From Bugula neritina (Eukaryota; Bryozoa; Gymnolaemata; Cheilostomatida; Bugulidae): a stretch of DNA of 64,000 nt. A program made the translations under genes and the position numbers. Where the stretch lies: NCBI GenBank assembly GCA_964035545.1, contig OZ037767.1:11885081-11949080 (forward strand), in the 5' to 3' direction. Below, in pieces: positions 8,091 through 46,854 of the stretch (position 1 is its first letter; every line of letters starts with the position of its first letter). The notes beneath the pieces are model-generated. The model worked only from the letters and a program-made list of their open reading frames with translations. It was not told the origin of the DNA and made no database searches.

Positions 8091-10496
8091 ATGAAGATTA
8101 TAATTGCTCTCTCCGTTCTTGTCTTCATACAGGTAGCTGCCAGCTTCAAATGGGAAACATGTGGTAAGTGACTGCTGCATTTGGCAGATTTTCTGTGTGC
8201 TCCAACACATTTACAAACTTGAAGAAAAATATCAATGTGGGGAAAATCTTTTGAACAAGTAGGAGTGATCATTTAAAAATACTTAGTCATTAACAAAACA
8301 AAAAACTGTTTATTAAAGCAACTATTATAGAACTTGAAACTCATCTAATATTGCTATAATTACAAAGAAAACTTATAGAAAAAGTAAAGGAAATATTATA
8401 ACGACTGCCAATAATTAACACAAGTCTGTAAATGGTTTACTGGTGTTTACCAAATGAGGTCATCAAAGGATTTACTAATGCAAAAAATATTTGTACATTG
8501 GCCATTAGATTTTTGCATTAAACTGTGCATAAGGTTTTTACAGTAATGATGGGTTTTCTAATAAGGTTTCCTAAATAAGGAAGATGTCTGTGAAAAAAGA
8601 GAAATACTATAAAATGGTGCAAGAGTATTACTTTGTCCCCAGAACCCTGGTACACCTGACTAACTATCCATCACTACATGGCTATTGTACACTCACTTTT
8701 TATTTTATTTCATCATATTTTAGTTACTCAGTAGTATCCATCTATGACAACAGTAAGAGTAGCTGTTTATGTCCAATACCTTAGAAATTCTGTGTGGTAT
8801 TTAAATGCTATAATAGTGGAATTAGCCAATTTTCACAGTAACACTACTGACGATGACGCAATATTGTACCATTGCATGCTGCTCATGGTAACAACAATAA
8901 ATATTTTTCTAATGTAGGTCAAACTCCCAACACTAGGCTGAACAAATTTGAAATAAGTCCAGTCCCACTAAAGTTTCCTGGACAAATTTCATACAACATT
9001 GATGCCGAGCTGCTGAAGGATGTGAAAGACGTCAGCATGACCCTGAAGATTGTGAGAGAAACGTTTTTCTTGGATATCACTTTGCCATGTGCTAAACAAA
9101 TTAGCTCCTGGTAAGTCAGGCTCTGACGTGGAGATGAATTAATTCACATTTCTCAGAGATTATAGCTTATAGCATTTGACTTTATTGTTTGTGGTCACTG
9201 GTTTACATCAGTATAGGGCAAGGGAGGTTACTCCTGATACAAGTATATTATGATACATTCATTGCTTTATGATGTATGTTGCAGTTCATACAGCAATCTG
9301 TGCAGCTTCTTCAAAGATATGTATGTTAATGACTGGGGAAATATTGGAAAGAACCTTATTGGAAATGCACTCAGCAAAGTATGTTAGCTTTTAGGTTTAT
9401 ATGAACTTTATAACCTTTATGCTTCGACATTTACTATAAAATACTTGCTTGATCGTGATTATAGCAGAGCAGCTGATGATGTTTAAACAATTGTACGGAG
9501 ATTTTGTGTTTGTTTTAAGCTGTAGTTGGTAGTTTGTGTTAAAAGTTGTAAGAATTTTTAATTTTGTAAATTTCTAAAGCAAAGACGCATGGCTTGGTTG
9601 GACTTGTCCTGGCTGGTTTGTTAGTATTCATATAAATGATAATGTCAATATTAAAGATAATATCGTACTTAGTCTGTTACCATGCAGGTCTATATATAGA
9701 AGTTGACAAATTGAAGTGTTGATGGTCAGTTTAACAGTAGTTGAAGCATGCAACTTTTTTATTAAGCTGAAGAGACTTAAAAAAGGAAACAACCCACCAT
9801 TTTTTAAAAAACTCTTGATTTTGGCTTGTATAAAATAGTAGTTGTTTGAATAGTTAAACATAGCCAATAAGAATGGTACTGTAAATCACTTTACAATTGT
9901 TTGTAATATAGTGAAGATAGGCTATAACACAAAGTCTCTACATTTGATCTACAACCTGGTGTTTTTATGCAGGAAGGAATCACCGGGGAAGCAGCTCAGA
10001 GAGCCGAGTTGATTCAGAAGACGAACGAAGTCTGCCAGAATGGCGTGAAGGCTCAGAGGATTAAGAAATCTGGAGTAATAAATGTTCCAAAACTACCAGG
10101 AATTCTCAACTTCATTGTAGGGGTGAGTTTATGAGAGTACATGTAGATATGCTATCTGCATCATGTGGTATTATATTGCATATGTTTTTATTTGTAATAT
10201 AATATTATGGCTAATTATTTGAGGTAAAATTCATACTTAAAGTTACATGAAACTATTAGCATTTTAGATATTCTTTATCAACTAAAGCTCTTCTGTCTTT
10301 CTTGTCAATTTATTCACAGTATTTCCTAGATCAGATTCCTACTAATGTTTCTGAAGAAATCGAATTCAGTTTATTGGTAGCTGAATTATGTTGATGTCTC
10401 ATTTACTAGGGAGATTACTCTGTTCGCATGGAAATGAAGGACAACTCAGATAATACAATGCTGGCATGTGTCAAGGGAAGCATTGAGTTGGACTAA
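8091..10496 (+). CDS. GM2A: Ganglioside GM2 activator-like ML-domain lipid-binding protein
   Basis: Coding exons 8091-8163, 8918-9110, 9285-9378, 9973-10122 and 10410-10496 join in phase to 597 nt (198 aa). Residues 1 to about 17 (MKIIIALSVLVFIQVAA) form a signal peptide. The mature part matches the ML/GM2A beta-cup family: an early ETCG cysteine, the ISPVPLKFPGQIS strand, an LPCAK motif, the WGNIG segment, a PKLPGIL loop, and a C-terminal strand pair ending YSVRMEMKD and MLACVKGSIEL. GM2A proteins extract glycolipids from lysosomal membranes for hydrolases; invertebrate relatives can have other lipid ligands. I count six cysteines in the mature protein, versus eight in vertebrate GM2A, so one disulfide is probably missing. 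A polyadenylation signal follows 60 bases after the stop. Confidence 0.85.
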
Positions 10497-12372: not shown

Positions 12373-15300
12373 TCACTGCTGTGGGGGCGGCAGCTGTGTA
12401 CTGTGACCTATATTCTGTTGAGGGAAATTCTGCATTTGCTGATTTGGCGGAGTTTGTGACAGAAGTTGCGGGGGAGGGGTCATCATGTTACTGCCTGGCA
12501 TCATGTTTTGCTGATATTGTAAATACTGCATGTCGTACTGTGGGTTGTGGCTAATTGGAACCTGCCCTTGATACACCATATCCTGAGGTGGATATGCCAT
12601 CTGTGGGTGAGAAGGGTACATGTCCTGCTGCATCGGCTGCTGAGGGTACATGCTGTTGGAATAGTCTTGGTCTCCACCCCAACCAGGAGCCATCTGCTCG
12701 CCGTATGGTCCTAAACTCTCATTCCACTCGATGTTGTCGGCCATGTTTACAGGACTTTCCTCCTTTCGAGCCTTGAGAACTTTAGACTTCTTTTTACGCT
12801 CACCCTTCTTGTATGTAGAGGCTGGGGGCGGGGCTCGCAGTGGGTCAACAGGTTTGGGGGGTTCGGCTTCAGAGCTGCAGAAAGTTAGGTTTCTATGAGA
12901 AGTCAGTACATACTAGGAAACATTGATACGAGACACTAAAGTACTAGTCAAGTGTTGGAGACATGTTATAGCCTGTAGCAAGTATATTACACAGAACTAA
13001 TGCGTAAAGCTGAAATGACCAAAGAGATCTAAAAGTTTAATGTTGCTGATGTTTATTATTCACACACTTTCCATCTTAACAAGTAGTGTCATGCACTCAC
13101 CCATTGAAAGGAGAGAGAGAGCTCCTGTGTCCCTCCTCAAACCTACTTGATCTCATAGAACTTCGGCTATGGGGGCGTTTAGAATCGGTCACACTAGCGT
13201 CATCACCTAGAACAGACACGTTTACACCAAATCGTATTGCCTAATGCAACTTCTAATCTTTAGCATTGGAGGAAACAATGTCGAAGATTTGTTTGTATAT
13301 AAATACACTCCACATAATATACGGAATAGAACACTTATATTCAAGCAGTTGGAAAAGACTGTTGCAACTAATAACTAGTACAAATGGTGAAAGCGCTTGT
13401 ACAGGTGGTGTCTCCTGACATCATCACACATAAAAACAAACTCAACAGACCAAGTTACAAATCGATTGAGTAATGTAATTTTAGTAGCTAGAATGGCAGC
13501 CTTGTCAATGGCTATGAGTGGACTTCCTTCGTCTGACTGCCAGCACGTAAGTAGAACGTAGCATTGCTAGTGACTCACGTTCTCTGGCCTCCATCTGCAG
13601 TTGCAGCTGCCGGTAGGACTCCTCCCCCACCTGATAGTCAGCCTCCAGAGTCGCATAGTTCCGCCGTAGAGTTTCCAACTCTTGTTTGAGAGAGGTAACT
13701 TTACGCTCTGAGTCGCGGTGTAGCAACTGTAAGAAGAGACAGAGTGTGCTAAGAAGCAGGCAGTGCAATACTTATCTAGCCTGCTATAGTCTGAGACACA
13801 TAGACTCACTGTAGTCTGAGATACATAGACTCACTATAGTCTGAGATACATAGACTCACTATAGTCTGAGATACATAGACTCACTGTAGTCTGAGATACA
13901 TAGACTCACTGTAGTCTGAGACACATACACTCACTGTAGTCTGAGACACATACACTCACTGTAGTCTGAGACACATACACTCACTGTAGTCTGAGACACA
14001 TACACTCACTGTAGTCTGAGATACATACACTCACTGTAGTCTGAGACACATACACTCACTGTAGTGATTCCTTTTCGATACTCACGTGCTAACAACTTCG
14101 ACTAACAAAATGCTATACTTGATGAGATGATAAAACAGAGCAAGGAATCATTACAGCTCAGTGGTACCAGGTTAGTGATAGATTCAGCTTAGAATAAAAA
14201 CTATTTTCTGCTTATACTAAAAGGTACTACAGAAAATTAGGCAGTAAAATGGCAAATCAGTCATTTTACCTAATTCAGTACACACTCGACATTTCTGATT
14301 TTTAGCTATTTTTCCCAGTTTAGCTGTAATGCATATATGATTTCTCGCCCTAAACTAAGAAAATATTAACAAAATAGTACAGTTGAATAATCAAAGTTTT
14401 TTCCAAGTTTGCTCGATTTTCAATGTTTTTCTATTGTTTTATTAAATTAGTATGCGAGGACCGGTTTTCCATCACTGGCCACACATAAATTCAGCTGATA
14501 TGACAATGACGTTATGCTATAATTTTGCAAAACCCCCTCCCAGCCTTTTTTACTATGCATAGTTAGTATCAGCACATACAATTACTCCATATAGTAAATG
14601 TTTATGAATTTGAGCAAAATTTAATTTTTGGGCATAGCTTGGTGATGTGTACTAAGTAAAGTAAAATGACCCAAATACTTAATTGCTATAAGAATATAGC
14701 CAAGTGAATACCTTTCTAGCAATACTAACATGAGCTACCCCAATAAACATGCAGCAGACCAACATTCTAGTGAGCTGACTCGAGAATCATGTTGAAATAG
14801 ATGTCAGGTGAAATATTTTGCATTTATCTACTCAAAACTGAATAAAAACAAACCCAATACATCCTTATTATAGCATGTAACAAGTCTTACTAAAATGCTG
14901 ATACACGGCTTCTTCACTCGACTGGTTAAATAAAATACATACTTACCCAACTTTCGTGTGCTTTTTTCTCGCCCTCCAAAAGCCTCTTTCTCATGTCTTT
15001 CTCGTTTGTCTTGTATTCTTCCTCAGTCTTGGCAACTCTCTCTTCCATCTGCGATATTTCCGCCCTCAACTCGCTGACCTTGGCAGCCTGAGAGTCTTGC
15101 AGTCGCTGCTGCTTCGCTTCTTCTGCTGCTATATTGAGCCTAAAACAAAGGATATAACTTGCTGCAGATATACAAGCTGTGTTCTATCACAAGACTCATG
15201 TAATGCAGTGAGATAATCTATAGATTGCTGCCAGATGACTCATAAGTTGCTGCCGCATTGTATGAGTTGCTGCTTTCATCGTGACAAAGTCAGTTGTATC

Positions 15301-18300: not shown

Positions 18301-21300
18301 GTTAACTATTGGATACGTCTAATAGCGCGCCACGCTGTTTCAGGGACCAGAAACTAAGAAACTAGGAAGCAATACCATTATAAAAAAAAACAATTTCTAT
18401 CGCAAGAGAAAAGCATTAGTAGAGCAGAGTAAAACTGCTCTAGCATATTGATACTAACTCACGCAGTTCTATTTACTTTAAATTTCAAGCTGATAAAATG
18501 TGTGACCTTGAAGGAGAAGAAGAGTGTATATATATGAAAGAAAATATGTTTGCATTGACAGCCTTTCACTAATCATTAAGGATAAAAATATACAACAACT
18601 ACACAGACAATACATAGAATACAATATTATAGAAACTACACATATATTATATAGATACTTTAGAAAACTACACAGATATTATATAGAAATATATAGAAAC
18701 TACACAGATATTATATAGATACTTTATAGAAACTCACATATATTATATAGATAATCTATAGAAACTACACAGATATTATATAGATACTTTATAGAAACTC
18801 ACATATATTATATAGATAATCTATAGAAACTACACATATATTATATTAATACTTTATAGAAACTCCAAGAAAAAAGCCAGAAATCAGGTGCCAACCCATG
18901 ATGTGATATATCTGAGGTATGAGCTGAGGTATACAGGTAAAACTCAGGTAAGTATAACAACTGTACGATGATTGGCTACATGTACCTGCGTCTGTACGGT
19001 CAGCACACTCTCCTCTAACGCCGCCTTCTGCTGCTCCAGGGCCGCCACGTTGAGTTGCAGAGAATTGATTTGAACCTGCAACTCACTTTTCTCCTCATTG
19101 GCAGACGCAATGCTATCCTGCGTAGATGTGAAGCAGCAGATTTAATCAAACTGTAACCTTGAAATTCATTTGTCTCACCCAGTTAGCCATGAAATTGAAA
19201 TACGGAATTAAAAATTTGCCACCAAACTTAACATTAGTCTTGTGCAAGTAAATAAGAGCTTTTAGTTTACTGAAATCCACAAAATAAATTACAACAATGA
19301 GAATAATTGGCAAGCAACACCTACTTTCAGCTCCTGTGCTTCACCTTGTGTTATTATAACTTCATTCTGCAAGTCTTTAATCTTTCGCTGGAGTTGCTCA
19401 GCTTCAGTTTGAAATATCGTGCTTTTCTCAAGCGCCTCGTAAGCAAACCCTAAGAAATAACAAAGATAAGCTAAATTTGTATAAATTACCTTATGTGATA
19501 AATCACCTACTCACAGTTCAAATGGCTAGTAAACTCCCCTTTGTTGATTACGCAAGTACAGCATTGATATCATTATATTATGATTTATAATTGGGAGTTG
19601 TGTCCCTGACTCAGCCAGCTAATAATAACACGCAATGAACAAATATTTCTATAAATAGACAATTTTGAGTCTGGTAAAACTGAACAAATTTCACCAAAAG
19701 TTATTTTCCAAACATAGAATCAACACGTTAGCAATGATAGTCTAAATTTAGAAGTATTCCATTAATTTAGTAAAAAAACCAACTATTTGAGTATTCCTGT
19801 GTAAGAATTAGTTTATACTAGTTTAAAGCAGCATGATATGGGTTTTATAGTTTTGAGCTAGTAATAAATAATAACCACAACAGGCAAAGTCTGGCAGATC
19901 TTATACATAAAATTATACATAAAACTGCTGCTCCAACAAAAAACATGAGAAGAAAACCTCTCGACTGACTACCTGATCACAGTATGCCTTGATAATCAAC
20001 TACTCCAGCAGTATTGGGACAGATGATATAATTGTAACTGGAGTAACCAAGCAGAGTTGGCCAACATAAATGAAGGAGCAAACACATACTTCAATATGTA
20101 ACACCATGTGTAGGCGAGGTAAACACTAAACTGTCAATTTGGAACTTTAAAAAGTGACCAGACACTTCTATCAACAGGTAGACGTAGCTCACTTTTCATT
20201 TTAGATGAGTTCACACATCCGTCTAGGCAAATGAGAAAGGCTACGATAGTGATATAGAAAAATATAGCCAAGGCTAGAGTAACGCCCACGCCGCCTAGCT
20301 TCACCATGTCGGCTCCACTGTAACCAAAGGGCTCTCTCGCCAGCATCGGCTGAAATGTGTCGGGAATCTAAGAAACAAACATAAAGAGAATAAGTGGACA
20401 TATGTACATCAGTAGAAATTACAGAAAGAGCGAAAACTCGACGGCATATATTGGAAGAAAAATTTTTGATCACAAAATAATGTCCACAGGACATATTGCT
20501 TACTTGAGAAGCGACCACCCATGCTTGTCGCTCAAAGCCATTCTCTAATTTAGCTAAGATTTCAGTGTAGACATATTTCACTGGTTCACCGGATGGACTA
20601 AGAGTGCGCGGGTAAGGTGATTCACCCTACAAATAATGAACACCTTGACAATTCAGCAGCCTCAAAACTTTGCGCAGAAAATATTTAAACTTGATAAGAG
20701 AAATGCCCCATACCTGCCCAGCAGCATTTTCAGTGGCTGTACCAGCAATGGGGGCAGTCTCGGAGTGCTCTTGCTTGACATCAGCGACCATTTCAACATC
20801 TTTTTCATCTTCCACAGCAAGCAAGTTTCTGCCAATATCAAGACTGGCATCCATTGGTTTATTCAATTCAGCTTCAGTCAAATGAAGCGCTGCCGAATCG
20901 CCATCAATATTTTTTGAAGAAGTATATATAAAATCATCTATGGCAGAGTCACTCTCTTCTTCATCAAAAAATAAGTCATCCGTATCAATGTCAGAAAGTT
21001 CAGGTGAACCCATTACTTGCTGCTGCTGCATGTCCAATGATGTCTCGAGTTCCATGCTGTTAGTGGGCAAGTCTTCTCGATTTGGAAGTTGACCAGTTAG
21101 ATGTTCACCACTCATGTTTAATTTATCTCCAATGGAAGTATCATCATTTCTCTCTGAAGCTTCTGGCGCTTTAAATTCAGGTTTTTCCCAAGCATTGTCA
21201 GCAGGAGATTCCTTCTGATCAATGTCAATTATTGGGGGGTCGACTTGATGCTGTGTCTTTTCTGAATCATTAGCATCTTTGAAACTATTCGGCTCATTGG

Positions 21301-24300
21301 GTTCTATTGGCTCATTGCTAGTTTCTTTAGGATCATCAACATTTGAAGCAGCTTGAGTATCAGTCATTGGAGTAGACGGTTTCTCACTACTATCTTGTTT
21401 AAAATCGGCTACATTATCTTGAGAGTTTTCAGAGTTGGTTGAAACAGAATCTTTTGGTTGAACATCTTCGCTGGTTTCATGAACATTTTCTTTGGTAATC
21501 GTACTTGACTCTTGTGACTTCGTTTCACCGCTCTCAGTTGGTTTGGTCTCTGGGTTCTCCACATCAGTTATATTTAAAATTGGGTCTGCAATTTCTGGTT
21601 CTTGCTCATTAGATTTAGGAAGTTGATCGCCATCTGGACTCTCAGCTTTAGATTGAATTTCTTCAACATCACCTTGCTGTTCACTCGACTGTACACTTTT
21701 CTCTACCTTATCTTCAGCTGGCAGCACTGATTCATTTACTGTGCTATTGTTTTCAACTGTTTGCTGCTTGAATTCATCTTTTTTTGTTTCATCCTGCTTA
21801 TTGATTACATCATTTGGTTTTGGCTCAATTATTTCTTGGTTGATATCACTTTCCTCTGACTCAATTGCTTTCTGATCAACATTGGGCTTTTCCAATGCTT
21901 CTGTTTCATGAGTGGAACTTTGCAATGGCTCTACTTCCTTTTGATCTGACTGTTTAGGTTTATCTTCTGCATCACTTCCTGTTGGCTTGTCTTCTTTCAA
22001 TGGTGGTTCCTGCATAGTTGTGTCAGTGTTTTCTGTAGAATCAACTTCAGTCTGACTTTCTTCAGTTTTCTTGGCTTCAACAGTTTCTTCAGCTTTTACA
22101 GCTTCCTTATTGTCAATATTCACATTAGCCTCAGAGGTCTCTTTGCTGGTTTCCATTGATACAACATCTAATTTTTCATCTTCATTAGTCTCTAATTGAT
22201 TCAAAATTTCTTTACCTTCATCCACAGGTATTTCGTTTTGATTTTTGATAAGTTGCTGTGGTTCATTGGTGGACTTTTTCTCTGCATCTTGTTCAACTTT
22301 TGCTTCATTATGGCTATCTGTGTGTTTGGTATGAGCTAAATTCTGGTCTTGTTCAGTTTTTATTACCTTTCCATTTTCAAAAGATACTTTGTCTGAACTT
22401 TTGTCTGATTTGATGTCATTTGAATCTGATTTATCAACTTCTGAATCATCTTGATCTATTTTAATCTGGTTAGCATCTAAACTATTTTGATCTTCAACTA
22501 TTTTAGTAGAAATTAAATCCTCAGCCTGCTTACTGTCTGCTTCCTTAAGAACTTCATTAGCTTCATCAATTTCAGTTGAATCTTGATTTATTTCAGTGCT
22601 TGTCCCAGTACTACTCTGATCTACATCAGACTTATTAATTGAAATGGTATCCTGGTTTGAAGCAGTTTGTTTGGTTTCGAGATCAGATTTCAAAGGTTCT
22701 GTTAGTTTATCATCTGATTCTGATTTTTTGGTATCGGATACATTTGCATCTGTTAGTTTCAGTTCCTTCAAATCTTGTTCTTTAGCTTCCTCTTTTTCAG
22801 GCTGAAATGTATCTTCACTAGGCTTTTTTTCTGCATCTTCACCAATTGTTTTTATACCATCATCTTTTAAATTTGATTCAGTCTTTTCAGCACCATGCAC
22901 TTCTGAAGGTTCTTTTTGTTCCTGATTTGCTTCTGCTAGATTTGGCTTATCTCCTTCGTTTGGTTCTTTATTTGCCTCCACTAGGTTTACTTGACCCTCT
23001 TCATCTTCTTTTAGTCCTTCATTGGCTTCTGCTAGATTATTTTCATTACCCACATCTTCTTTTGGCTGCATATTTAATTGCAATTTTTCGCCAACAGATT
23101 GGTCTGACTTTTGGTCTATCTGGTCAATTTTTTTATTTTCACTAGAAATTGCTTTATTGAGACTTTCATCTTGACTTGGCACTTTCCCTTCAGCTGTTCC
23201 TTCTTGCTCTGCATCTTCACCATCTAAAGTATTTAAAATAAATGTTTACGCTCGATACAAGACCAAAAAATTTTAAGCCAGCATGTGACAATAAACTATT
23301 GCACATAACTAAATCTATTGTCAACTATAAACTCCATAAATCTGTGCATCATTTGATTAGCTTAATTGTATTAAAAACCATAAGAGGTAAACTATGTATA
23401 TAAAATACAATGAAAGATAACTTGGTACCAAAAAATGATCCAGGTTTTTGGGATGTTTACTTTTATCTTGAAGGGTTATAAACCAAAATAAAATTACTAT
23501 TATTATGTAAAATTTGACAAGAATTGGTAACTATTAGATTGGTATCTAATTTTCTATTTTCAGATGAAGCAGAACAAAATAAAGTGTGTCAATATACAGA
23601 TAAATTAGAAATAGCCATGCACTGATATTATAAATGTGTAAAAAATTAAAAAAAAAGAATTGAATTCAATCTAAAACTATTATGTAAAGAGTAGCCTATA
23701 GGTTAATTTGATTATAGTATAATCTCATGGTCACCATATAATACATTGACTGATTAGCTTATAATCAAGTTCTCAAAATTGATATTCCATGTTAGCTGAT
23801 GAAATTAGAGATATACAACACCAAGATAAAAATAAGCTTTAGCACAGTTTGTCTTTTAGTCATTTAAATTCACTCACGTGCACCGAGAGCCAGAATAAAA
23901 ATCAGAAAAGTTAAGTGAAGTTTGATGATCATCTCTTGTACTCAAAAAAGTCTTTAGCTAGAGTCTACGTTGTTTATTCAACAGAATAATCAAAAACTTT
24001 GTGTAAGAATGTAAACAATCCAATAATGGAATTGTTTGTTTTTCCAAATGAATCAACTATTGTAGAAATTAGTATCTATTATTACATGCAATACTTTTCA
24101 ACAATTACACGCATGCTTATAAAACCCAACATTATTGGCCTTCAACATGGGATCATTAAATCCATCTTCCATGTAAAAATAACAAAGATAACTTAAATAT
24201 TGAAATATACCAGAAACAACCAGAAATCTGTCAACATACTTGAAATTAAAATTGAGAAAAGATCAGCAGGTCAAATCAACATGATAATTACACATTTATA

Positions 24301-27300
24301 ATTACTTTCAAGGTAGTACCAAAATTCTAAAAGCACGTTAATGGTCATGCACTAAATGAAGATGTATATTCCAATTTGCTAGTAAGTGACAGAAAGGTTT
24401 CTATATTAGCTAGAGTAAGGGTGGCTAGGGTGAGGGGTAATTATAGAAATAGCATAGCAGCAATATAACAGCTGAAACATCACCTGATCTTGAAAACCAG
24501 CTACTTATTCTACCAAACAGTCCTACATCTATATGATGGTAAAATATCGAATTTCAATTCAAATAATCAGAGATAATATTGCAAAAATGAAAACAAAATA
24601 CAAGTAAATTAGATCATTTAGTAATATAATCTCAAACTATAATCATAATAATTTATAAAGCTAGTATTCAAGTAAAATAACATAAATTTACTCTTCTACT
24701 TCTATTCCCTTAAACATTCATCATAAGTGAATAAACCTGTATAAAGTTTAAAGTAAATATATATATTAGACTAGAGCTAGAGCCTCTTTGACTTTATAAC
24801 TGGGACAATAACTCCTACCAAATATGAACATCTTGCAGACAAAACAAGAAATCATAATTCTGACAGGCATTACTTCAAACTCTGATAACTCTGGTAAAAC
24901 ATTGCAAACTCAACTCAAAGTATGTTGAAATATTCTCAATTACTTATATATTAATGAACATATTAAAGATAGATTTCACTGATTGGGAAAGATGAATGAA
25001 ATTTGTTATGGTGTTGAAGCAACATACTTATTGAGTCTCTATAAAGTAAAATTGTGAAATATGTGATACTAATTGTAAAACAATTTATTAAAAGACATAT
25101 TTTCAAACTGAAAGGTAGACAACTACCATAAAGCAATAAAATAATTCTAGATTCTAGAGTCTAGAGCCTTGAAAAAAATTCTCAATTTTTTCTTGAATCA
25201 TTTTTAAAAACAGACAAGGGATTTAGCTATGAGTTTAAATTAAATGGTATCCAACTATTAAAAAAACTCCAGTTCCTAAAACTTTGTAGACTTTATTTTG
25301 GAATCTACAATAGGCTACAGCTTTTTATAAAATACAAAATATATCAATATTTTCATCTAGTAGACATAACGTAGGCCAAATATTTTTTAAGAATAGTCTG
25401 ATACTTTCTAAAACCACATTTTAATGTTAATATACTATCATAGTGCTTTATTGCTGCAGGTCCCCCTTTCAACCTTTATTTCCTATACATATTTTAAATA
25501 AAAAATGACAATACCACCCAATGTTATAATAGGAATTTGAATACTTTTTAACATAAGTTACAATTTCGCCAGTGTCATAGAGGAAAATGACCCATATTAC
25601 TTTACAGCAGAAACTTTTCCAAACCTATGTTCTCAAGGCACAATCTAACCACTTCACTTGCCAGGGAGTTGAGGGAGTAAAAACTAGTCTAATGATTATT
25701 GCTCTACCAACGGGATGAAACAAGCGCTTTATATTACTTGAGCAACAAACTGCTACTTGGGTACTAAACAAAGAGCAAAGCTTCCAGTCTAGAATGACAG
25801 GTTGAGAGTAAACTTTAGGCACAGAGATTAGAAAATACTATGAAATATAAGCCTCCAAATGCACAGGTCTACTAAATGTTGCTGGAGTTAAAGCTGCTAA
25901 GAACAAAACAATATAACAGAACAATCACAAAAAGATGCTTTATGACAAACATACCTCCATCAACAGCATCTGTGTTTTCATCTACTTTAGCCTAAAATAA
26001 AATAAATATTCTACTAAACAAAATTAAAAGCAACCATAGTAATAAAAGTTTTTAATAATTGCACTAAGAACGTGATGAAGCTAGGAAATCTGCTGCACAA
26101 GTGTTTCAAAAAGTATAAACTAAATTTAACTAACATGAATATCAACCAAACCTAAAGACACTAAAATGAAAGAAGATTGAACTTTGTTGCAGCTTATTCT
26201 AGCTTCACTAGCAGTACCAAATACCTACCAAACCAACTGCAAAATTACAAATTCACTTGACTTATACTCACATCAGCATCAACAGGGGGTGTCGGTTGTA
26301 TTAACGTCTCTTTATCCGCAGAGGGATCTATCGGAGCGGTCGGAGAGATGTCTTCTAGTGGATCAGGAGAATCACCATCTACATTATCAACAAGTACTTT
26401 GTTAGACAGAGGTAATAATTAAGAATTGATTACGTAAAGTTGCTAGCACTAACTGCTGACGCACACTGTAATTTAGAAACTGCACTCAACAAACTAAAAA
26501 AGCAGAAACTAGTCTCCTTCACTATAATGGCACACACAAACTACGCCAACAGAATGCTGTAAACACAAAAGTGGAAGTGTAGGAAGGAGAGAACTCAGAA
26601 GCTGGCAAATCATGTGGCAAACTGTGAAAACTGAAAGACAGTCACTCCCTTGGCAGACTACAACTGCATACCACTGATTGGTGAGGTGAGTCCGACACCT
26701 GCAGCAGATCTAATAGAAACAGGGTTGGCCGAGATCTGTCTCATTTTAGCCTCTCTCTTGGCAAAGGCATGACGTCTGGCAGTTATCAGCTCCTGCACTG
26801 AACGCTTTTCTTCTCCCAACAGTGTGTTTAGTACTTCTTCAGCAGAACTGCTTGTTTCAGCAGACAAATGTTTGGTACTAACTGTTTCATCAACCTTTCC
26901 TGTAGAAGCTGCATTAAAACTTTCCATATGACGTTCTCTTTCTAGTGACGACCAATCAGAGAAGCACATCTGCTCCATATTAAGAAATGCTAGAGAAGGA
27001 CAAGTTCCAGCAACATTTACAGCATCTTCAGCTCTGCCCACAGTAGAATCTGAAACAGATTTTTCAGGACTTTCCTGCTGATAACCGTCAGCATTTTGAT
27101 TCGTCCGTCTTGAAGGAACCTCATCACTTTGTGAGTTAGCTAGTTGATTAAACTCCCTCATTGTATGGCCCAGCATAACATCTTTCAAAGAGGGAAGTAA
27201 TGTTCTGGGAGAAAGAACAGCAGTGCGCTGATTGGTTGAAGGAGGTTGATGAGATTTGTCCACAATAGAATATTTTGCAATCTTGTTTAAAGCTAACTGT

Positions 27301-30300
27301 TTTGGGCACACAGGATACTGTTTTTCACTAAATAATTTATCAAGAAACTTAATAAAGTCTAAACGGCACCTTCTTTGATCAAAACCGTCCACAATAAAAT
27401 CCTCGATTTTACTATCTATTTTAAATTTGTTTTCAGGTCTAATATTTTCTTGCGGTCGACTTAATGGAATTCTTCCTGATCCAGTACTGGAAAATTGATT
27501 TTCAATACCTACATAACAAGTCCATTCTGAGTTTACTAGATTGGTTAAATAACTACTTTTAGGGCACACATCGGGGCGTGATTGTGAAACCGAGTCTAGG
27601 GGCATGCCAGGTACTAACTGCAGAGTATGTGAGCTCATACCTGAAGAGTCTGTCTGGGCATCAGAGTCACTGTCAGCACTGTCTGCCAAGTCTCCTGGTG
27701 TCTGTAAACAAAGTGCTGACATTTGAGTTACCAGCATTACGACCACACCAAAATCTTAAATTAGTCTTACATGATAATAAAAAGTATATAATATACATGT
27801 GACTAACACGTTCATCCCAAGTACTGCCTATCCAGTAAGCAGATGATTTGACTGAACTAAAGCCTAAGCCATGACCAAAAAAGCTGCCAAATTCTGTAAA
27901 ACAATCATGATATAAAACTCGCTTTAAACTAAGTTTAAAGACAGCCAGCCCCCTGTCAACCACAAATACGATACAGAGTGGCAGTTAATCATCACAGGTC
28001 AAAGCAAATTAAACTATTCAGCATACCACAGTATCTGTGGTCGGTGGGAACTCAGAAGCCTCTGGTTTCTTTGTCTCAGGAACAGCGTCAGCTTCTGGTA
28101 CGGTATTCATATGTGGTAACGTGCTGACTGGCTCACTAGGTATATCATCCGATGACTTCTCATTGGTCGGAGGACTTGGATCTGGCAATATTACAAAATA
28201 AATCAGTTAAAGGATTGCTCTATCTTGTCTAATAAATGGCCATTTAGGTCAAACACACATAATATTGTGTTTTTCTAAGCATGCATTGACAAAAAGCATT
28301 TGACCAAAGGTAGAAAAAGTTAGTTGAAGTTGAGGGTGTAGATTGGTAACAGCCAAAACGCCGATTTTGAAATGAGTTGGGAAATGTGACGTAACAGCGC
28401 CAGCATTCCTGCTGATCACGTGACTATACAAATGAATAACTATAGAAATATGACTGTGAGATGTGATCTTTCAGCTCGTAATTTGTATATTTATAGAAGT
28501 GCAAATGTGAATTATCTCAATCTATAGTTTTTTGACATGTTAAATAACATGTATGTGATAACATTAGGCCATATTTTGCTTGTAAACATAGAAAAAAGCA
28601 TTGCAAAAACATGCATTCTTTAGGATGAATGCCTGCGATCGATCTAAACTAGGTCAGATTGTGCAATATTACGGGCGCACCAAAGCTGACCTATATAGCG
28701 CGCTTTAACTGCTTGAGCGTTATTGATTGATGTTGCGCTTAGCAACCTTGAATACTAGCGTTATAGTTAGCACGTGCAGCATAGTTACTGGCGTTCACAC
28801 GTCACGTATTAGGCTATTCCTTTTCATGGCTGAAAATTTTACCTCCCTAAAAATTGGAATTTTGAAAAGCTGTTTTCTAGGCATATATCCCTTTGCAAAG
28901 TCACAATTGTTTGCATACACATTAGATTATAGTTCATAATTATAATGTGATTGTAATAAACTAAGATAGAGCAATCCTTTAAAGACACCAACTGCCTGTG
29001 TATACCTTGGTGAGCCTCATGGCGAGATAGTAAAATACAACTGAGATGGTTGATACCATGCTTTAGAAATAATTAAAATATAATTAGTTTAAGGTTTCAA
29101 ATTTTAGTAATTCACATAGATTTAGCAGCTTTGATTATAGCTTAGGATTATAGTATGAGAGCTGCAGCAGAATAATTTATAAAGAACATGAATTTAATAA
29201 TTATGACTTGTTTTACTGAATTGAACATACCTTCAGTATTAGCAGGATCTGAACTAGCTTTCGGTACAGTTGTATCAACACCCTGCAGACATAGAGCAAC
29301 ACATTACATTACATGTTAGTATCGAAACACTTTCATAAAAATATGTATTTATGAACTACAGGCTACTGCAGATATTTTATGCTTCAGTCAGCCTAATTAG
29401 TACTTAATCCGAAAATAATCTATTCCATAGACTAGGAGATTTATAAATGACAGTATGTAAAATTCAGTACAGCTATAATAGACAACACAATAGAAAGCAA
29501 GGATTTTGCCATAAACAAATAAAACTTATTTTACCACTGCTGACTTCACATTAATATAAAACACCTACTGGTTCTTCAACAGTAATTGGCTGGTTAGCAT
29601 ATACTTCCAGTTCTTTCACCAAGTTCTTCGGAAATAACCCTTGGGCCACAGGCTAAAACAATTTGGTGAAGACCATAGAATGTAACAAAAATAATTCTAA
29701 GCTGTCTTTCTAATTTACATGCTAACCGCAAATTTTTATTCTCAATGAGAAATACCAACATGTTACCAAAACCTTAAATAGCATATATTGTATAAGCACT
29801 AGTTATAATAAAAGCATTAAATGCAACTGAAAAATATGCAATAAAATACCTTACCTTGACTCCCACCACTTCTCCATACCACAGTTTGTTGAAGGGAGGG
29901 GAGAGGTAGTGGCTAAACACATTTATCTTTTCATGCCTGTAGAAGGTGAGGTAGCCTGGTTTAGTGGCAGTGTAATCCTCATTTGCTTTGACAAGGCTAA
30001 TGGGCTCTAAAATACAGCACAGAAAAACACAACTAAGTAGCCGATATCCTTGATAATTCAAGCAATATAAAAAGAGTGGCATGGGTAAATGGGTGTTGCA
30101 CTAAAAACAACCATCATTTGGGGTATAGCCACATATTTAAAGGTAGAGACAGAATGTAGTTTATCAACAAGAACAGTTCTAGTCTACTGCTATATTCCAA
30201 GAAGTGGTCTATGAAAAAAATAATCACCTTAAAAACTCAAACTATGAACTCATGCTACACAAAATGTACATTCTTTGCCCAGAAAAATGATTTAATTTTC

Positions 30301-31499
30301 CCCTATTTAACAAAAGTATTACAAATAAAAATAAACGATTCAAAATCATAATAATATTGGCAACAATTTGATTACTAAAATAGATTGCTATCACCATGAA
30401 TGTAGTGGCTGGTGAGATGTTTGTGACAAAAATTGAACAGAAAAACCTTTAAAAAACTAATAAATTACAATCCTAAATCATAGTAGACTGATGTTAAATC
30501 AATATTTATAAAATTTGATAATCATAATGATGATAAAAAGAAATCAATAAATGAATAATCATAATGATGATTATTAAAAATAAAATACCTAATCTAATAA
30601 TTGAAATCAATTAACATAAAATACTATAAAATTAATTCAAACCTTTACTTTTAGAATTAGTGAAGTACGCTAACTCTAAGTTGAATGGAAACCATCACCA
30701 GATAACTCAATTATCAATTAGTGAACATATTTAGTATAAGTATTACTACTACTTTTAATATTAGTATTAGTATTACTATTAGTATTAGTGTAAGTATTAA
30801 ATTATAACCGATTAATTTACCTGAATTTTTACTGAAAATAGTACTTAAAAAAACTAGAAATGTAGAACTCATGAGAAGTAGAGCTACCACTAGAAGTGCA
30901 ACAAACTGAAAATTAAACACAGTATAAATAACTACAAGTATAAGTATTAGTATAAGACTGACTGAGAAATAATCACAATGAGTATGACTGTATCAGTATG
31001 AGTAACTCAAACTGTAATACTGATAATAATAGTATCAGTATGACTATTGCAGTAATACTATTATTATTAGTATTGCTATCAGTATGAGCATGACTATGAG
31101 TATGAGTATAAGTATCAATATTATTATTACTATTAGTATTACTATTAGTATTACTATTACTATTAGTATTAGACTATTACTATTATTTAACATAATGATA
31201 ATAATAACCATAATGTTAACAGTATTAACATTACCATTATGATTATGGTTATCATTATCATTATGTTATTATTGTCATTACGAACTTGCTAATATAAACT
31301 CAAACTTAACTTTAAACGATCAATTATGATCATTTAATACTGATAGTGAAAGCTTACTTGAGCACTCCTTGTTTGCACACGCCTTCAGCTTTACGTTAGA
31401 ACCGCTTAGAGTATCCGTAGGCAAAGGTTGTGCATGAACAGCAACTGTGAACCCCAAAAAGAGCAAAGGTATGATAATATGTCGACCAATAATTTGCAT
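12373..31499 (-). CDS. MIA3: TANGO1/MIA3, ER exit site cargo receptor
   Basis: TANGO1 loads bulky cargo such as collagens and lipoproteins into COPII carriers. Coding exons, 5' to 3': 31499-31358, 30006-29855, 29652-29569, 29282-29231, 28181-28027, 27701-26672, 26378-26272, 25991-25955, 23223-20714, 20626-20504, 20367-20193, 19449-19325, 19117-18986, 17973-17818, 17315-17134, 16747-16546, 16410-16320, 15803-15665, 15139-14947, 13726-13579, 13206-13101, 12874-12373. All junctions keep phase: 6543 nt, 2180 aa (human 1907). Domains: signal peptide 1 to about 24; MIA-type SH3 about 36-118 (ACANKECS, EDYTAT, LWYGEV, GLFPKNLV); acidic lumenal region about 127-1450; membrane helix about 1487-1512 (exon 11); coiled coils about 1523-1978; Pro/Gln/Met-rich tail to 2180. 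The tail is short, with few PPP motifs for Sec23 binding. The 837-codon exon 9 appears cysteine-free and rich in E, K, D, S, N and Q. Confidence 0.9.
13790..14060. repeat. 25-bp tandem repeat in a TANGO1 intron
   Basis: About eleven copies of a 25-bp unit close to TAGTCTGAGACACATACACT plus CACTG, with GATACATAGA variants at the left end, lie in the intron between the exons at 15139-14947 and 13726-13579. Confidence 0.9.
16085..16150 (-). mobile_element. hAT-type transposon end (fragment)
   Basis: On the minus strand this reads CAGGGCTGTCCAACAGGCGA, then CCCCAAGGCCGGATGTGG. That strongly resembles the CAGGGGTGTCCAA and GGCCGCATG-type termini of hAT-family elements. The opposite end was not found; a G-rich and C-rich tract around 16000-16030 may be internal. 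It lies in a TANGO1 intron. Confidence 0.55.
16474..16520. repeat. GT-rich microsatellite
   Basis: A short GTGTGCG/GTGTGTGAGTGAGTG tract next to the 3' side of the TANGO1 exon at 16747-16546. Confidence 0.6.
18590..18860. repeat. AT-rich higher-order tandem repeat
   Basis: About 32-bp units of the type AACTACACAGATATTATATA plus GATACTTTATAG alternate with AACTCACATATATTATATAG units, giving a repeat period of about 64 bp between roughly 18700 and 18840. It is intronic in TANGO1. Confidence 0.8.
23878..23932 (-). CDS. MIA3: Alternative first coding exon of TANGO1 with its own signal peptide
   Basis: Within the intron upstream of the large acidic exon, the minus strand has ATG at 23932-23930 followed by MIIKLHLTFLIFILALGA, an almost ideal signal peptide: basic residue, hydrophobic core and small residues at the cut site. 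It ends exactly at a consensus donor GTGAGT. The exon is 55 nt (phase 1), and the acceptor before 23223 needs phase 1, so it joins in frame to give LGAHGEDAEQ. The product would be about 1612 aa, entering the ER with the acidic lumenal region, membrane helix, coiled coils and tail but without the SH3 domain and the first lumenal part. It may be an alternative promoter exon. This is inferred from splice phase and peptide character; no transcript was seen. Confidence 0.6.
28211..28978 (+). mobile_element. Non-autonomous TTAA-target transposon, copy 1
   Basis: A 768-bp element has a perfect 16-bp terminal inverted repeat AGGATTGCTCTATCTT and a TTAA on each side (28207-28210 and 28979-28982). TTAA duplication is typical of piggyBac and Kolobok elements. 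A second, inverted copy occupies 60847-62883. The small open frames inside (28249-28431 on minus, 28727-28939 on plus) recur in the other copy because the DNA is duplicated; they have no known domain. This copy sits in a TANGO1 intron. Confidence 0.8.
30720..31275. repeat. TTACTATTAG-type simple repeats and AT hairpin
   Basis: Irregular runs of TAGTATTAC/TACTATTAG units occupy much of TANGO1 intron 1. They are followed by an inverted repeat at 31188-31268, where TAACATAATGATAATAATAA on the left is largely complementary to the right arm ending ATCATTATCATTATGTTA. Related simple repeats occur at 800-1270. Confidence 0.75.
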
Positions 31500-35485: not shown

Positions 35486-38400
35486 GGGTCATTCCACGTC
35501 AACTCAACCGATGGCCCACGCCTTTGCGTCTCAGATTTTGTTCATATTTACACCAAATGGACCTACACATGTCTTGAGTACTATTCTTGAATATTTCTGG
35601 CCTGACACAAAAACTTTTTGAGAAATGACTATTTTCATGAACAAAGGTTGGGAAAAATTTTGAGGAAAATTTGCGATTTTTACTTTTAGACCAATTTGTA
35701 AACGTCCATATCTCAATCATTTTTTTAGACTGAGCTTTAAAATTTGGTGTGTGATTTGATAAAACCTATCAGTTTGCACTAGTAGTAACACATACTGCAG
35801 AATACTTTGTGTGCATATATGCTAAGCCATTGAATATTGGCAAATTTTTGTGAATTTTGAAAAACTTCGAATATTTGCCACATCACAAAAGGCGTTAATT
35901 TTTATTTTACTTCCATAAATTTTTATCCATAAATAGTTGATTATGGTGACTTTATACTCCTTAATTTGTGTAATTTTGAAAATAATATTTTCCGAGATAT
36001 AGACACCCAAAGTGAAGAAAATGTGAAAATTCGCCCAACTTCACAAGGATGTAACCCGATGTTTGAATATGTTAATATTTTTTAAACAAGCATTTTCTGT
36101 AACGTCATTTAGTGTATTTTGTAGATTCATAAATTTAAATGTCCTTATATTGTCCAAACTTAAAGTAAATCGCACGGAAAAATGGTATGTGTACGAAAAT
36201 CGGCAAAATGCAATTTTTCAATATAATATGTTGGGATCATACATTTTTTATCATTCATATTGTTCAAAATATCAAGTAGATACATATATGTTTCCTATAT
36301 ATGTCAAATCTACTGAAGATTATAATAAAATCTGATTTGTGTGTAATAGCATAAGAAAAATTCTGCCGATATGCATTATATGATATTCCCATTAAGTTTC
36401 AGGTAGCAATTGTTATTTCTGTGAGTGAATGGTGTGAAACAGCTGAGATTTTGCTGGAATCAAGTACATTAAGTAGCTGAAGCAAGGGTGGCTTAAAAAA
36501 CATGCCCAAATATAACACCATGGCCCTGAACACAATAGGCCTAATTAATTGAATGACGGTGGTGTTTAGTACATGCCGGAAATAATTGTGTCTTTTAAAA
36601 CAGACGTGCCTAAATATAGCAGAATGGCCCTAACCTCGCCCTAATTTGGTCAGTACTGGTTAAAGAATCAAGTAATTGGCCTCATGCCATGTCTAATGTT
36701 CATCCTGAAAAAATTTACAACTCTCTTTTTCATAACTGGAAACAATGGTCTTCCAACTTTAATATCAAAATTCCTTTTGCAGTCTTCTGGCTTGCTGTGC
36801 AAGGTAGTTGTTGGGTTTTTACATAAGCTGGAAAAGCTTTTCCCTAATACATGATAGCTTTTTACATATCATCTCAGCTATATTATGCTTTTCCATTTTC
36901 ATTATAGCTAATACACAAAAGCTAACTTTTTTACGACTATAAAGACCCAGCAGTTTTTCTCTTATCCAAACTTGCATTTCACACTTGTACTGGCAACTTG
37001 TAACTCATGAGATAACCTTTTTTTTACGGTGCTATTTCTTCAGTCTGCTACTATAATAAATATTTATTTCTCTAACTTAAAACACAATGATAATTGTTTA
37101 CTCCAAATTCTATAGATGTCTTATCAATGGTCCAGCTTTCTGGTGCCAATGTCAATAACTGGACCTTCTTTTGTCCCAAAGATACTTTCACCTTATTTAA
37201 GGAACATATTAATATGTTCAAATCTTTATGATTATTAGGCTTTATACAGGCATTTGTTGCTTCTGGGTGGAGTTCCTCTCTCTCTATACTTGCAACTGTG
37301 GCAACCTTTTTAGCAATGACCTCCTCCACTTGATTCTGTTTTTTCCCCATAGTTCACTTTACTGGAAGGGCTAATTTTTGGGGCTCTCCTGGTATAATTC
37401 TACTCTTTTGAACTGTAGAAACTGAGAGAAACTGTGCAATATTAATTGCTTTAAAAAAAGCTGAGCTCTCAGAATACTCTCAAGAAACTAAAAGTGATGC
37501 ATTTCTTGAAGTTGAGAAGGAAGCACAGACACTAAACACTGGAATGACAGAATTGGAAGCTTCTCCCGTGAAAGTTGCAAAATTAGCCCATCCAGTAAAG
37601 TGAGCTATAGGAAAAGAAAACAAAAGAAAGTTCAGGAGGTCATTACTGAAAAGGTAGAAACAGTCTTGGGTATAGATGAAGAAGAACTCCGCCCAGAAGC
37701 AGTATGAAGCGTAGTAATCATAAAGATTTGAAAAAATTAGTATGATCCTTGAATAAGGACGCGGAAGTTTTCTTGTGACTAGAGAGGGTCTAGTTATTGA
37801 CATTAGCATGAAAAGCTAGACCATCGATAGAACAGCCATAGAATTTGGAGCAAACAATTACCTGGCCCAGCAAGCCAGAAAACTGCAAAGGAAATTCTGT
37901 TTGAACTAGATGGTAAAGTTGGAAAACCATTCTCTCCACATTCAAAAGAAAAAGTTGTAGATTTTTTCAGGATGATGAATATTATTCTTAGCCTGGGCAA
38001 ATTGCTAACCTGATTAGGGTGAGGTTAGGACCATTCTGCTATATTTAGACAGGTCTGTTTCAAAAGCCACAATTGTTTTCAGCATGCATTAACCCCCTCG
38101 TTGACCTAATTCGGCCTATTGTATTCAGGACCCTGGTGTTATATTTGGGTATGCTTTTTGAAGCCTTCCTTGCCTCAGCTACTTAATGTACTTGATTCCA
38201 GCAAAATTTCAGTTGTTTCACACCATTCACTCACAGAAATAACAATTGTTACCTGAAACTTAATGGGAATATCATATAATGCATATCGGCAGAATTTTTC
38301 TTATGCTATTACACACAAATCAGATTTTATTATAATCTTCAGTAGATTTGACATATATAGGAGACATATATGTATCTACTTGACATTTTGAACAATATGA

Positions 38401-39178
38401 ATAATAAAAAATGTATGATCCCAACATATTATATTGAAAAATTGCATTTTGCCGATTTTCGTACACATACCATTTTTCCATGCAATTTATTTTAAGTTTG
38501 GACAATATAAGGACGTTTAAATTTATGAATCTACAAAATACACTAAATGACGTTACAGAAAATGCTTGTTTAAAAAATATTAACATATTCAAACATCGGG
38601 TTACATCCTTGTGAAGTTGGGCGAATTTTCACATTTTCTTCACTTTGGGTGTCTATATCTCGGAAAATATTATTTTCAAAATTACACAAATTAAGGAGTA
38701 TAAAGTCACCATAATCAACTATTTATGGATAAAAATTTATGGAAGTAAAATAAAAATTAACGCCTTTTGTGATGTGGCAAATATTCGAAGTTTTTCAAAA
38801 TTCACAAAAATTTGCCAATATTCAATGGCTTAGCATATATGCACACAAAGTATTTTGCAGTATGTGTTATTACTAGTGCAAATTGATAGGTGTTATCAAA
38901 TCACACACCAAATTTTAAGGCTCAGTCTAGAAAAATAATGGAGATATGGACGTTTACAAATTGGTCTAAAAGTAAAAATCGCAAATTTTCCTCAAAATTT
39001 TTCCCAACTTCTGTTCATAGAAATAGTCATTTCTCAAAAATTTTTTGCGTCAGGCCAGAAATATTCAAGAATAGTACTCAAGACATGTGTAGGTCCATTT
39101 GGTGTAAATATGAACAAAATCTGAGACGCAAAGGCGTGGGACTTTCTGAAATTTGGTTGATTTGACGCGGAATGACCC
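35486..39178. mobile_element. Palindromic DNA transposon with very long inverted arms
   Basis: The ends are GGGTCATTCCACGTCAACTC on the left and its near complement, ending GCGGAATGACCC, on the right, with AATA on both sides (35482-35485 and 39179-39182). The two arms match in inverted orientation almost to the centre (about 35486-37380 versus 37600-39178). The left arm has an extra segment of about 270 bp (36819-37090). Each arm carries a decayed copy of the same coding sequence reading outward from the centre: 37350-37072 on minus (GKKQNQVEEVIAKKV, then LAPESWTIDKTSIEFGVNNY) and about 37610-38000 on plus, where stops interrupt it. The PESWTI and FGVNNY pattern resembles a helix-turn-helix-like region of a repeated invertebrate transposon-encoded protein, but I cannot name the superfamily. 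Other open frames in the arms (36063-36335, 38320-38592, 35822-36010, 38645-38833) are mirror copies of each other. Confidence 0.8.
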
Positions 39179-45700: not shown

Positions 45701-46854
45701 GTAAGCATTAACTCTTGCTTGATAACTAAATAGTTGACTGGAAATGGATAGCATAAGTAAAAATAACTTTGGTGTCTTGATTTATAGTTATATGCATTTT
45801 TTCCACTACTATGGTAATAAGTAATATTGTGTTAGGATATTTTTATCTTTACAATTTCTTACTATTGCTATTTTGCCAAAGATAGATAATTCTTTTTATT
45901 GCCATTTTAAATGCTTTAGGAGATTTAGTGTATGGACATTGCAAGATAGAAATACATATATAATAAACGTAAGGCAACTAAATGATGATAATTATTAACG
46001 TGTAAATAACTTTATATAAAAATATCAACAGTTTTTTAGTTGCTGCATTACAAGCAATATATATTTATAAAGCTATAAAGTATACTTGCAGTAAAATATA
46101 GCTAGAATAAAATAAATAAAAACTTCTTCAACTTGACACAGTTTTACCAATCATATTAGTTCGAGCATAGAGCTATCAGATTCCTAATTTTTCATTTATG
46201 TTTATTCAATTTAGTTATTTTTTATTATTTGCAATTGATAATTATGCATTATCAAATGGATTTCTTATTGCTACTATAAAGCGCAGTTTAGTTAGTGAGA
46301 ATTATAATGGTGATCAATAAAAAAGTCAGTAAAACCTAGTTGAGTGTCATGGCTCTGACTGTAGTCTGAGGTTTTATGAAAAAATTACATAAGATCTTAT
46401 TAATGTCTACTAGCGCTGGTTTTATGTAACCATAGTAACACAAGAAAAAGGAAATAACCATATACATCAGTTTAAGCACTTTTGTGGTTCTCGTTGAATT
46501 AAATGTACATAAAACAAGAAAACTCAAATTAATGTATAATGAGTTTTTGAAGCAGAGACATTTTTAAAGAAGGAATTCTGTTTTTATTTGTTTCTCTACA
46601 AATGAGGTCAACTAGATCTTATTAAAATGTATTAATGTATTTTAGAGCTTTCGTGGTCATAATACCAATTTAATATGTGCATTTTTGCAAGTAGGACATC
46701 AACAAACAAGTACAGTTGCATACAATAATGCAATTTATTAAATGTTTTTAATTAATACAATGCAAATTCTAAAAATTACTCCAATTTTAATAAGAATTGA
46801 ACATTTATTACAGCATTCTATAGAACTGTATCTTGTTATTTTGTTTTCCAGAAA
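42753..46854. other. Divergent intergenic region, lectin to TLR
   Basis: This AT-rich region separates the start of the lectin gene (-) from the start of the TLR reading frame (+), so it should hold both promoters. An acceptor directly before the TLR ATG (TTTTCCAG at about 46845-46852) shows that a TLR 5' UTR exon lies upstream, unplaced. A decayed inverted SINE head lies near 44085-44175. Short open frames such as 43292-43498 and 45079-45318 have no domain, and I do not call them genes. Confidence 0.5.
44085..44175 (-). repeat. Decayed SINE head
   Basis: On the minus strand AGTGATTAGAGCACTGCATC and a later CTGAAACCCACTGATG resemble the A-box, B-box and body start of the SINE family seen at 2325-2545. 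Confidence 0.4.

Follow-up and report, generated by a model that had tools for sequence, protein, structure and literature searches.

Does the TANGO1-like gene of Bugula neritina carry a second start, hidden in an intron, from which a product that enters the ER but lacks the SH3 domain could be made? The question is raised by a 55-nt element in intron 8 of a minus-strand gene of the window, by which is meant the whole 64-kb stretch of DNA that was analysed, positions 11,885,081-11,949,080 of chromosome 3 (OZ037767.1) in assembly GCA_964035545.1.

A TANGO1-like gene in the window

On the minus strand, 22 exons were assembled from 31499 to 12374 into a frame of 1,857 aa with no stop, and the introns between them were all GT-AG (21/21). 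The layout of the product comprised a signal peptide, a MIA-type SH3 domain (encoded by exons 1-3), an acidic lumenal exon, a membrane segment, a long cytosolic part and PPP motifs (Table 1). Only two hydropathy peaks exceeded 1.4, starting at residues 3 and 1170, and these corresponded to the signal peptide and one strong membrane segment. A long charged, heptad-like stretch in the cytosolic part, read by eye, may form coiled coils.

A protein search with the acidic exon returned two proteins at E <= 0.001 among 7,991 scored candidates. One, P0002, is the deposited model EB796_016823 of Bugula neritina, and is 84% identical to the acidic exon, while the other, P0001, is a genomic open frame. 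From their divergence, both are taken to represent another lineage of the B. neritina complex. P0002 follows the exon order of the gene over exons 1 to 8 and on into exon 9, within which it ends; the first residue of P0001 is a methionine inside exon 9. The initial annotation had called the gene TANGO1, with its SH3 domain upstream of the candidate leader, and this assignment as a TANGO1-like gene held up and is well supported by sequence comparison, because the exon order of P0002, its match to human MIA (the alignment spans CANKEC/CADQEC) and its Pfam SH3_2 score (28.2 bits against a cut-off of 21.8) all point to it. When the surroundings of exon 2 were taken alone in the frame of the window, SH3_2 reached 20.5 bits, just below that cut-off, and the sole match in the NCBIfam search scored 12.2 bits against a cut-off of 400. 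No paper naming TANGO1 together with Bryozoa was found in the literature searched.

Two other features of the gene were observed. Intron 9 (87 nt, 20627-20713, minus strand) is open in frame up to its final three bases, which form a TAG at the acceptor; its read-through tail is identical in P0001 at 26/28 positions, and retention of the intron would yield an acidic lumenal protein that lacks the membrane segment. An in-frame ATG at 20307 (minus strand), in exon 11, lies immediately ahead of that segment and is a possible start for a TANGO1S-like form.

Table 1. Positions in the window of the exons discussed and of the candidate elements.
Feature	Position	Strand	Description
Exon 1	31358..31499	-	Canonical start, signal peptide, CANKEC segment; P0002 support
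Exon 2	29855..30006	-	MIA-type SH3 core; P0002 vs human MIA E 1.4e-05
Exon 3	29569..29652	-	SH3 domain end
Exon 6L	26672..27701	-	Exon 6 (27701-27641) plus 969 nt to a second phase-1 donor
Exon 8	25955..25991	-	Canonical partner of exon 9, phase 1; same junction read through by P0002
Candidate alternative first exon	23878..23932	-	Signal-peptide leader MIIKLHLTFLIFILALGA plus 1 base
Implied 654-nt intron, leader to acidic exon	23224..23877	-	Acceptors of at least 4.7 from 23877 to 23223: 23795 and 23223
Exon 9	20714..23223	-	Large acidic lumenal exon, 836 aa, net charge -136; P0001 85% identical
Exon 11	20193..20367	-	Membrane segment GGVGVTLALAIFFYITIVAFLIC
Exon 22	12374..12874	-	Proline/glutamine-rich C terminus; three PPP motifs, residues 1706, 1824, 1853

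The candidate leader exon in intron 8

Intron 8 is the longest intron of the gene (2,731 nt) and has a GC content of 29%. A 55-nt open exon had been annotated within it on the minus strand, and was found exactly where it had been placed, encoding MIIKLHLTFLIFILALGA. On chromosome 3 this element corresponds to 11,908,958-11,909,012, and the acceptor of exon 9 to 11,908,303. It starts with an ATG at 23932-23930, runs for 18 codons plus one base, and is followed by a GT donor (CAC/GTGAGT) after its last base, 23878. The frame begins at this ATG because an in-frame TGA lies 12 nt upstream, and the nearest upstream ATG is 155 nt away, a distance matched by 10/248 intronic ATG spacings. Exon 9 requires one base ahead of it, so the phase of the leader (phase 1) fits. 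Spliced to the acceptor TTTAG/ATGGTGAAG at 23223, the leader gives MIIKLHLTFLIFILALGA-H-GEDAEQEG (...LALGA-H-GEDAEQEG), and the frame of this leader form then meets no premature stop in the rest of the gene (1,612 aa in total), in agreement with the phase match that had been claimed.

The initial annotation had also described the donor as consensus and the signal peptide as near-ideal, and both descriptions required some tempering. On a matrix built from the gene's own 21 donors only, the leader donor scored 8.93, compared with 5.63-10.43 for the real donors, 13 of which (of 21) scored lower; its base at -1 is C, however, making it a good donor with an imperfect consensus. GTs inside introns that scored as high numbered 4/924, a count that includes the leader and excludes the 21 real donors. 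The hydrophobic core of the leader is strong (best 10-residue mean 3.09), but near-ideal was a slight overstatement, as a cut after A18 puts L at -3. By our own reading the cleavage site is acceptable, not ideal, and A-L-G/A or A-H-G/E would suit the -3/-1 rule better than the cut at A18. The reading frame, phase, donor strength, hydrophobicity and uninterrupted joined frame are all direct observations, and in this respect the sequence observation is confirmed, whereas the isoform is unproven.

Immediately before the leader ATG is an AG that scores -3.45 as an acceptor, against 4.75-11.73 for the 21 real acceptors. Since this AG is no acceptor, the exon would depend on a promoter of its own. 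A promoter scan found 3 sites compared to 3.9 expected, but the consensus sites used are bacterial, so the result says nothing for an animal promoter. On the downstream side, the in-frame acceptor at 23223 (7.65) is the strongest of those from 23877 to 23223. The acceptor at 23795 scores 5.18, and joining the leader to it would give 7 residues followed by a stop.

The 201 nt around the leader showed one genome match at E <= 0.001, using a search that ignores simple repeats and very common words, and a location within a repeat was rejected on the basis of this single-copy match. An origin as a copy of exon 1 was likewise rejected, as the 55 nt showed no match to exon 1 in a short-word blastn. 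A search with the leader joined to the acidic start (131 aa) gave none at E <= 0.001 among 8 candidates sized 0.55-1.75 times the query; because candidates were restricted to that length range, a full-length leader isoform would escape it. The leader was absent from both relatives that share the acidic exon, P0001 and P0002, but this absence is weak evidence, because P0001 starts inside exon 9 and the P0002 model is built on exon 1.

Expected frequency of leader-like elements

A match in the chance estimates was an ATG together with a basic residue, a hydrophobic core free of charges, a cleavage site that could be tolerated, and a donor in phase 1; signal peptides were judged by a simple, home-made rule of hydropathy, charge and -3/-1 residues. 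The strictest thresholds were the candidate leader's own values. Among 12,000 dinucleotide shuffles of intron 8, matches were seen in 239 with a donor of at least 5.6 (the weakest real donor) and a core of at least 2.0, in 61 at thresholds of 7 and 2.4, in 21 at 8.9 and 2.4, and in 9 at 8.9 and 2.8, so that the overall frequency per intron 8 by shuffling was 0.0008-0.02. The values per intron 8 were 0.0001-0.0229 from two Markov models of 40 Mb each (donor 7-8.9, core 2.0-3.0), which gave 0.0007-0.1138 over the 21 introns, and 0.0014-0.0676 from two 4-Mb simulations, the top value of the latter being at a donor of at least 5.6 and a core of at least 1.6. The 3rd- and 4th-order intron models may overstate chance, because the candidate leader is part of the 13.6 kb used to train them. 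For both strands of the 64 kb and all phases, the Markov expectation with a donor of at least 8.9 was 0.022-0.896, depending on the model and the hydrophobicity threshold.

A scan of the window itself (donor at least 7, core at least 2.4, all phases) gave four matches, namely exon 1, the membrane exon, 8091-8163 on the plus strand, and the candidate leader. The same scan of 20 arbitrary 10-kb stretches of contigs C1-C5, on both strands, gave one match in total. A match of this kind is unusual for intron 8, but is not overwhelming for a search of the whole window.

Alternative explanations

It is quite plausible, if short of probable, that the leader is a product of chance, in the sense that an ATG and a good in-phase donor happen to flank a hydrophobic stretch in a T-rich intron, with no product made. 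Chance stays a live option because the finding was picked, by eye, from the whole 64-kb window, for which the expectation given above comes close to one at its upper end, and the AT-rich composition of intron 8 would favour hydrophobic codons. The low frequency of such elements in intron 8, the single comparable match in the 20 arbitrary stretches, and the rarity of strong donors among intronic GTs all argue against it, while the 131-aa search provided no independent support for a product. A start that is used but has no role of its own, arising from low-level promoter noise that gives a translatable mRNA, is improbable. Promoter noise of this kind is common in animal genes, and it would be compatible with every sequence feature of an alternative first exon, but it does not predict a good signal peptide and a fitting phase together. 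That the leader is the signal-peptide exon of another transcript, either a short peptide or a non-coding RNA nested in intron 8, is very improbable; the acceptor at 23795 is nearer than that at 23223, but it is weaker, and this reading was rejected because 23795 is the only other acceptor scoring at least 4.7 and yields just 7 residues. Finally, the main transcript might be suspected of taking up the leader as a poison or cassette exon, since its length of 55 nt is not divisible by 3, and its inclusion would shift the frame and end translation. An AG does lie directly ahead of the ATG, but its very low score is not that of an acceptor, so that the leader was rejected as an internal exon, and this explanation is extremely improbable.

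The Bugula TANGO1-like gene may well use the 55-nt element as a genuine, though minor, alternative first exon, a reading that is held tentatively and falls just short of probable. It is favoured by the open frame and fitting phase, by a donor stronger than most real ones in the gene, by its low frequency in shuffles and simulations of intron 8 and the near absence of comparable matches in the 20 stretches, by the long gap to the nearest upstream ATG, and by the in-frame acceptor being the best one available. It is also favoured by the over-representation of phase-1 introns near signal-peptide cleavage sites, as described in PMC1626468. It is disfavoured by the negative 131-aa search, the C at -1 of the donor, the requirement for its own promoter, and the whole-window expectation. 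The weights given to all of these readings are a judgement, in which the chance estimates were set against the presumed frequency of second starts in genes for secreted proteins.

The proposed isoform

For the alternative first exon, we infer a promoter, transcription, splicing, targeting and any effect along the following lines. Transcription from a promoter inside intron 8 (2.7 kb) would begin a short way upstream of 23932, and the leader, spliced from 23878 to 23223, would direct the acidic exon into the ER lumen by its signal peptide. The usual membrane segment and cytosolic part would come next, so the product would keep the TANGO1 cytosolic part but be missing the SH3 domain. In Drosophila, an SH3-deleted Tango1 showed no interaction with the p24 protein Logjam and a strong presence at the plasma membrane, according to PMC10932740. 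Given this deletion, a natural SH3-less form would be expected to be poor at binding p24 and SH3 cargo and, by analogy, may be poorly held at exit sites. Among the titles and abstract openings of the literature searched, no SH3-less lumenal TANGO1 isoform was found, and among the matches listed for TANGO1 with a missing SH3 domain, TANGO1 was named only in the same Drosophila study.

Exon 6L, a candidate hidden coding extension

Upstream of intron 8, sequence comparison points to a hidden coding sequence that is better supported than the 55-nt leader. The frame of exon 6 continues without a stop for 326 codons until it meets a TAG at 26658-26660, a run for which the probability from base composition is about 3.5e-10; elsewhere in the 21 introns, the longest run free of stops has 94 codons. 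Use of the second donor (exon 6L) adds 969 nt, or 323 codons, in frame with exon 7, giving a total of 2,180 aa with no stop. P0003, a genomic open frame from the sister Bugula lineage, is 82% identical over the whole 6L query, and its exon-6 residues equal those of P0002. On read-through, both exon 6 donors encode Gly-Met (GGTATG), and P0003 retains the two pairs. With a score of 6.03, and nine bases identical to those of the exon 5 donor, the donor of 6L is weak compared with the short donor (8.85), which fits alternative use, and the deposited EB796 model uses the short exon 6 and omits 6L. The 6L segment had a single genome match, itself, and no Pfam match, and the predicted structure of exon 6 plus 6L (mean pLDDT 32.4, from 2 sequences) was too poor to use. 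Exon 6L would add a large insert to the lumenal part; alternatively, translation up to its stop would end the protein before the membrane segment and so give a secreted SH3 form.

A broader but rather unlikely proposal is that one gene builds interchangeable lumenal arms: the SH3 domain with the short exon 6, the SH3 domain with the 323-residue 6L (or, with translation up to the stop of 6L, a secreted SH3-6L protein), and an SH3-less acidic arm from an internal signal-peptide exon. These would mostly be carried on the same cytosolic scaffold, and cargo choice would be set by promoter and splicing.

Other features of the window and assembly

The plus-strand match of the window scan (8091-8163) is a phase-1 exon that by eye resembles a signal-peptide exon, and lies within a region (8091-9400, plus strand) that, by eye, we take to encode an ML-domain/GM2-activator-like secreted protein. 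A long LRR open frame at 46801-49236 (plus strand), with Pfam LRR_8 in 9 stretches, is a candidate Toll-like receptor, in which a membrane segment and the beginning of a TIR domain were read by eye. Near-identical open frames of 102 aa at 36027-36335 (plus strand) and 38320-38628 (minus strand), about 2 kb apart, form an inverted repeat pair. The annotation of the assembly rests mainly on aligned transcripts (PMC11480708). In the assembly, eight COX1 matches were found on six contigs (C295, C6, C17, C196, C65 and C4). Seven of the eight carry an in-frame TGA, that on C17 being without a stop, and C196 and C65 each have two separate pieces; the stops and separate pieces suggest nuclear copies or sequences of other organisms in the assembly.

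Comparison with known systems

The role of the lumenal part of Tango1 was called still elusive in a 2021 review (PMC7829582). If true, a natural isoform that is lumenal, membrane-anchored and SH3-less would separate the functions of the SH3 domain from those of the remaining lumenal arm without engineering, and the conserved 6L represents a second, better-supported change to the same arm.

Like the leader form, the short isoform of vertebrate MIA3 (TANGO1S) is an SH3-less product of the TANGO1 family that keeps the cytosolic part, and cTAGE5 (MIA2) is presumably close to it in the same two respects. TANGO1S encodes the cytoplasmic domains, as stated in PMC12690545, and forms of its type lack the lumenal part, whereas the leader form would retain a signal peptide and the 836 acidic lumenal residues of exon 9. 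The initial annotation had drawn this same distinction, and the product predicted from the joined frame would bear it out, being SH3-less yet lumenal. The engineered Tango1.deltaSH3 of Drosophila similarly has lumenal and transmembrane parts without SH3, but is man-made and, as PMC10932740 describes, found strongly at the plasma membrane. Full-length TANGO1 and TALI are the same as the leader form from the acidic exon onward, but have the SH3 domain and first lumenal exons in addition. In the sponge Amphimedon, TANGO1 modules also occur apart, as split lumenal and cytoplasmic proteins, but according to PMC7829582 these are separate proteins and not isoforms with a common membrane and cytosolic part. 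The leader isoform, if real, would be a variant within the TANGO1-family isoforms.
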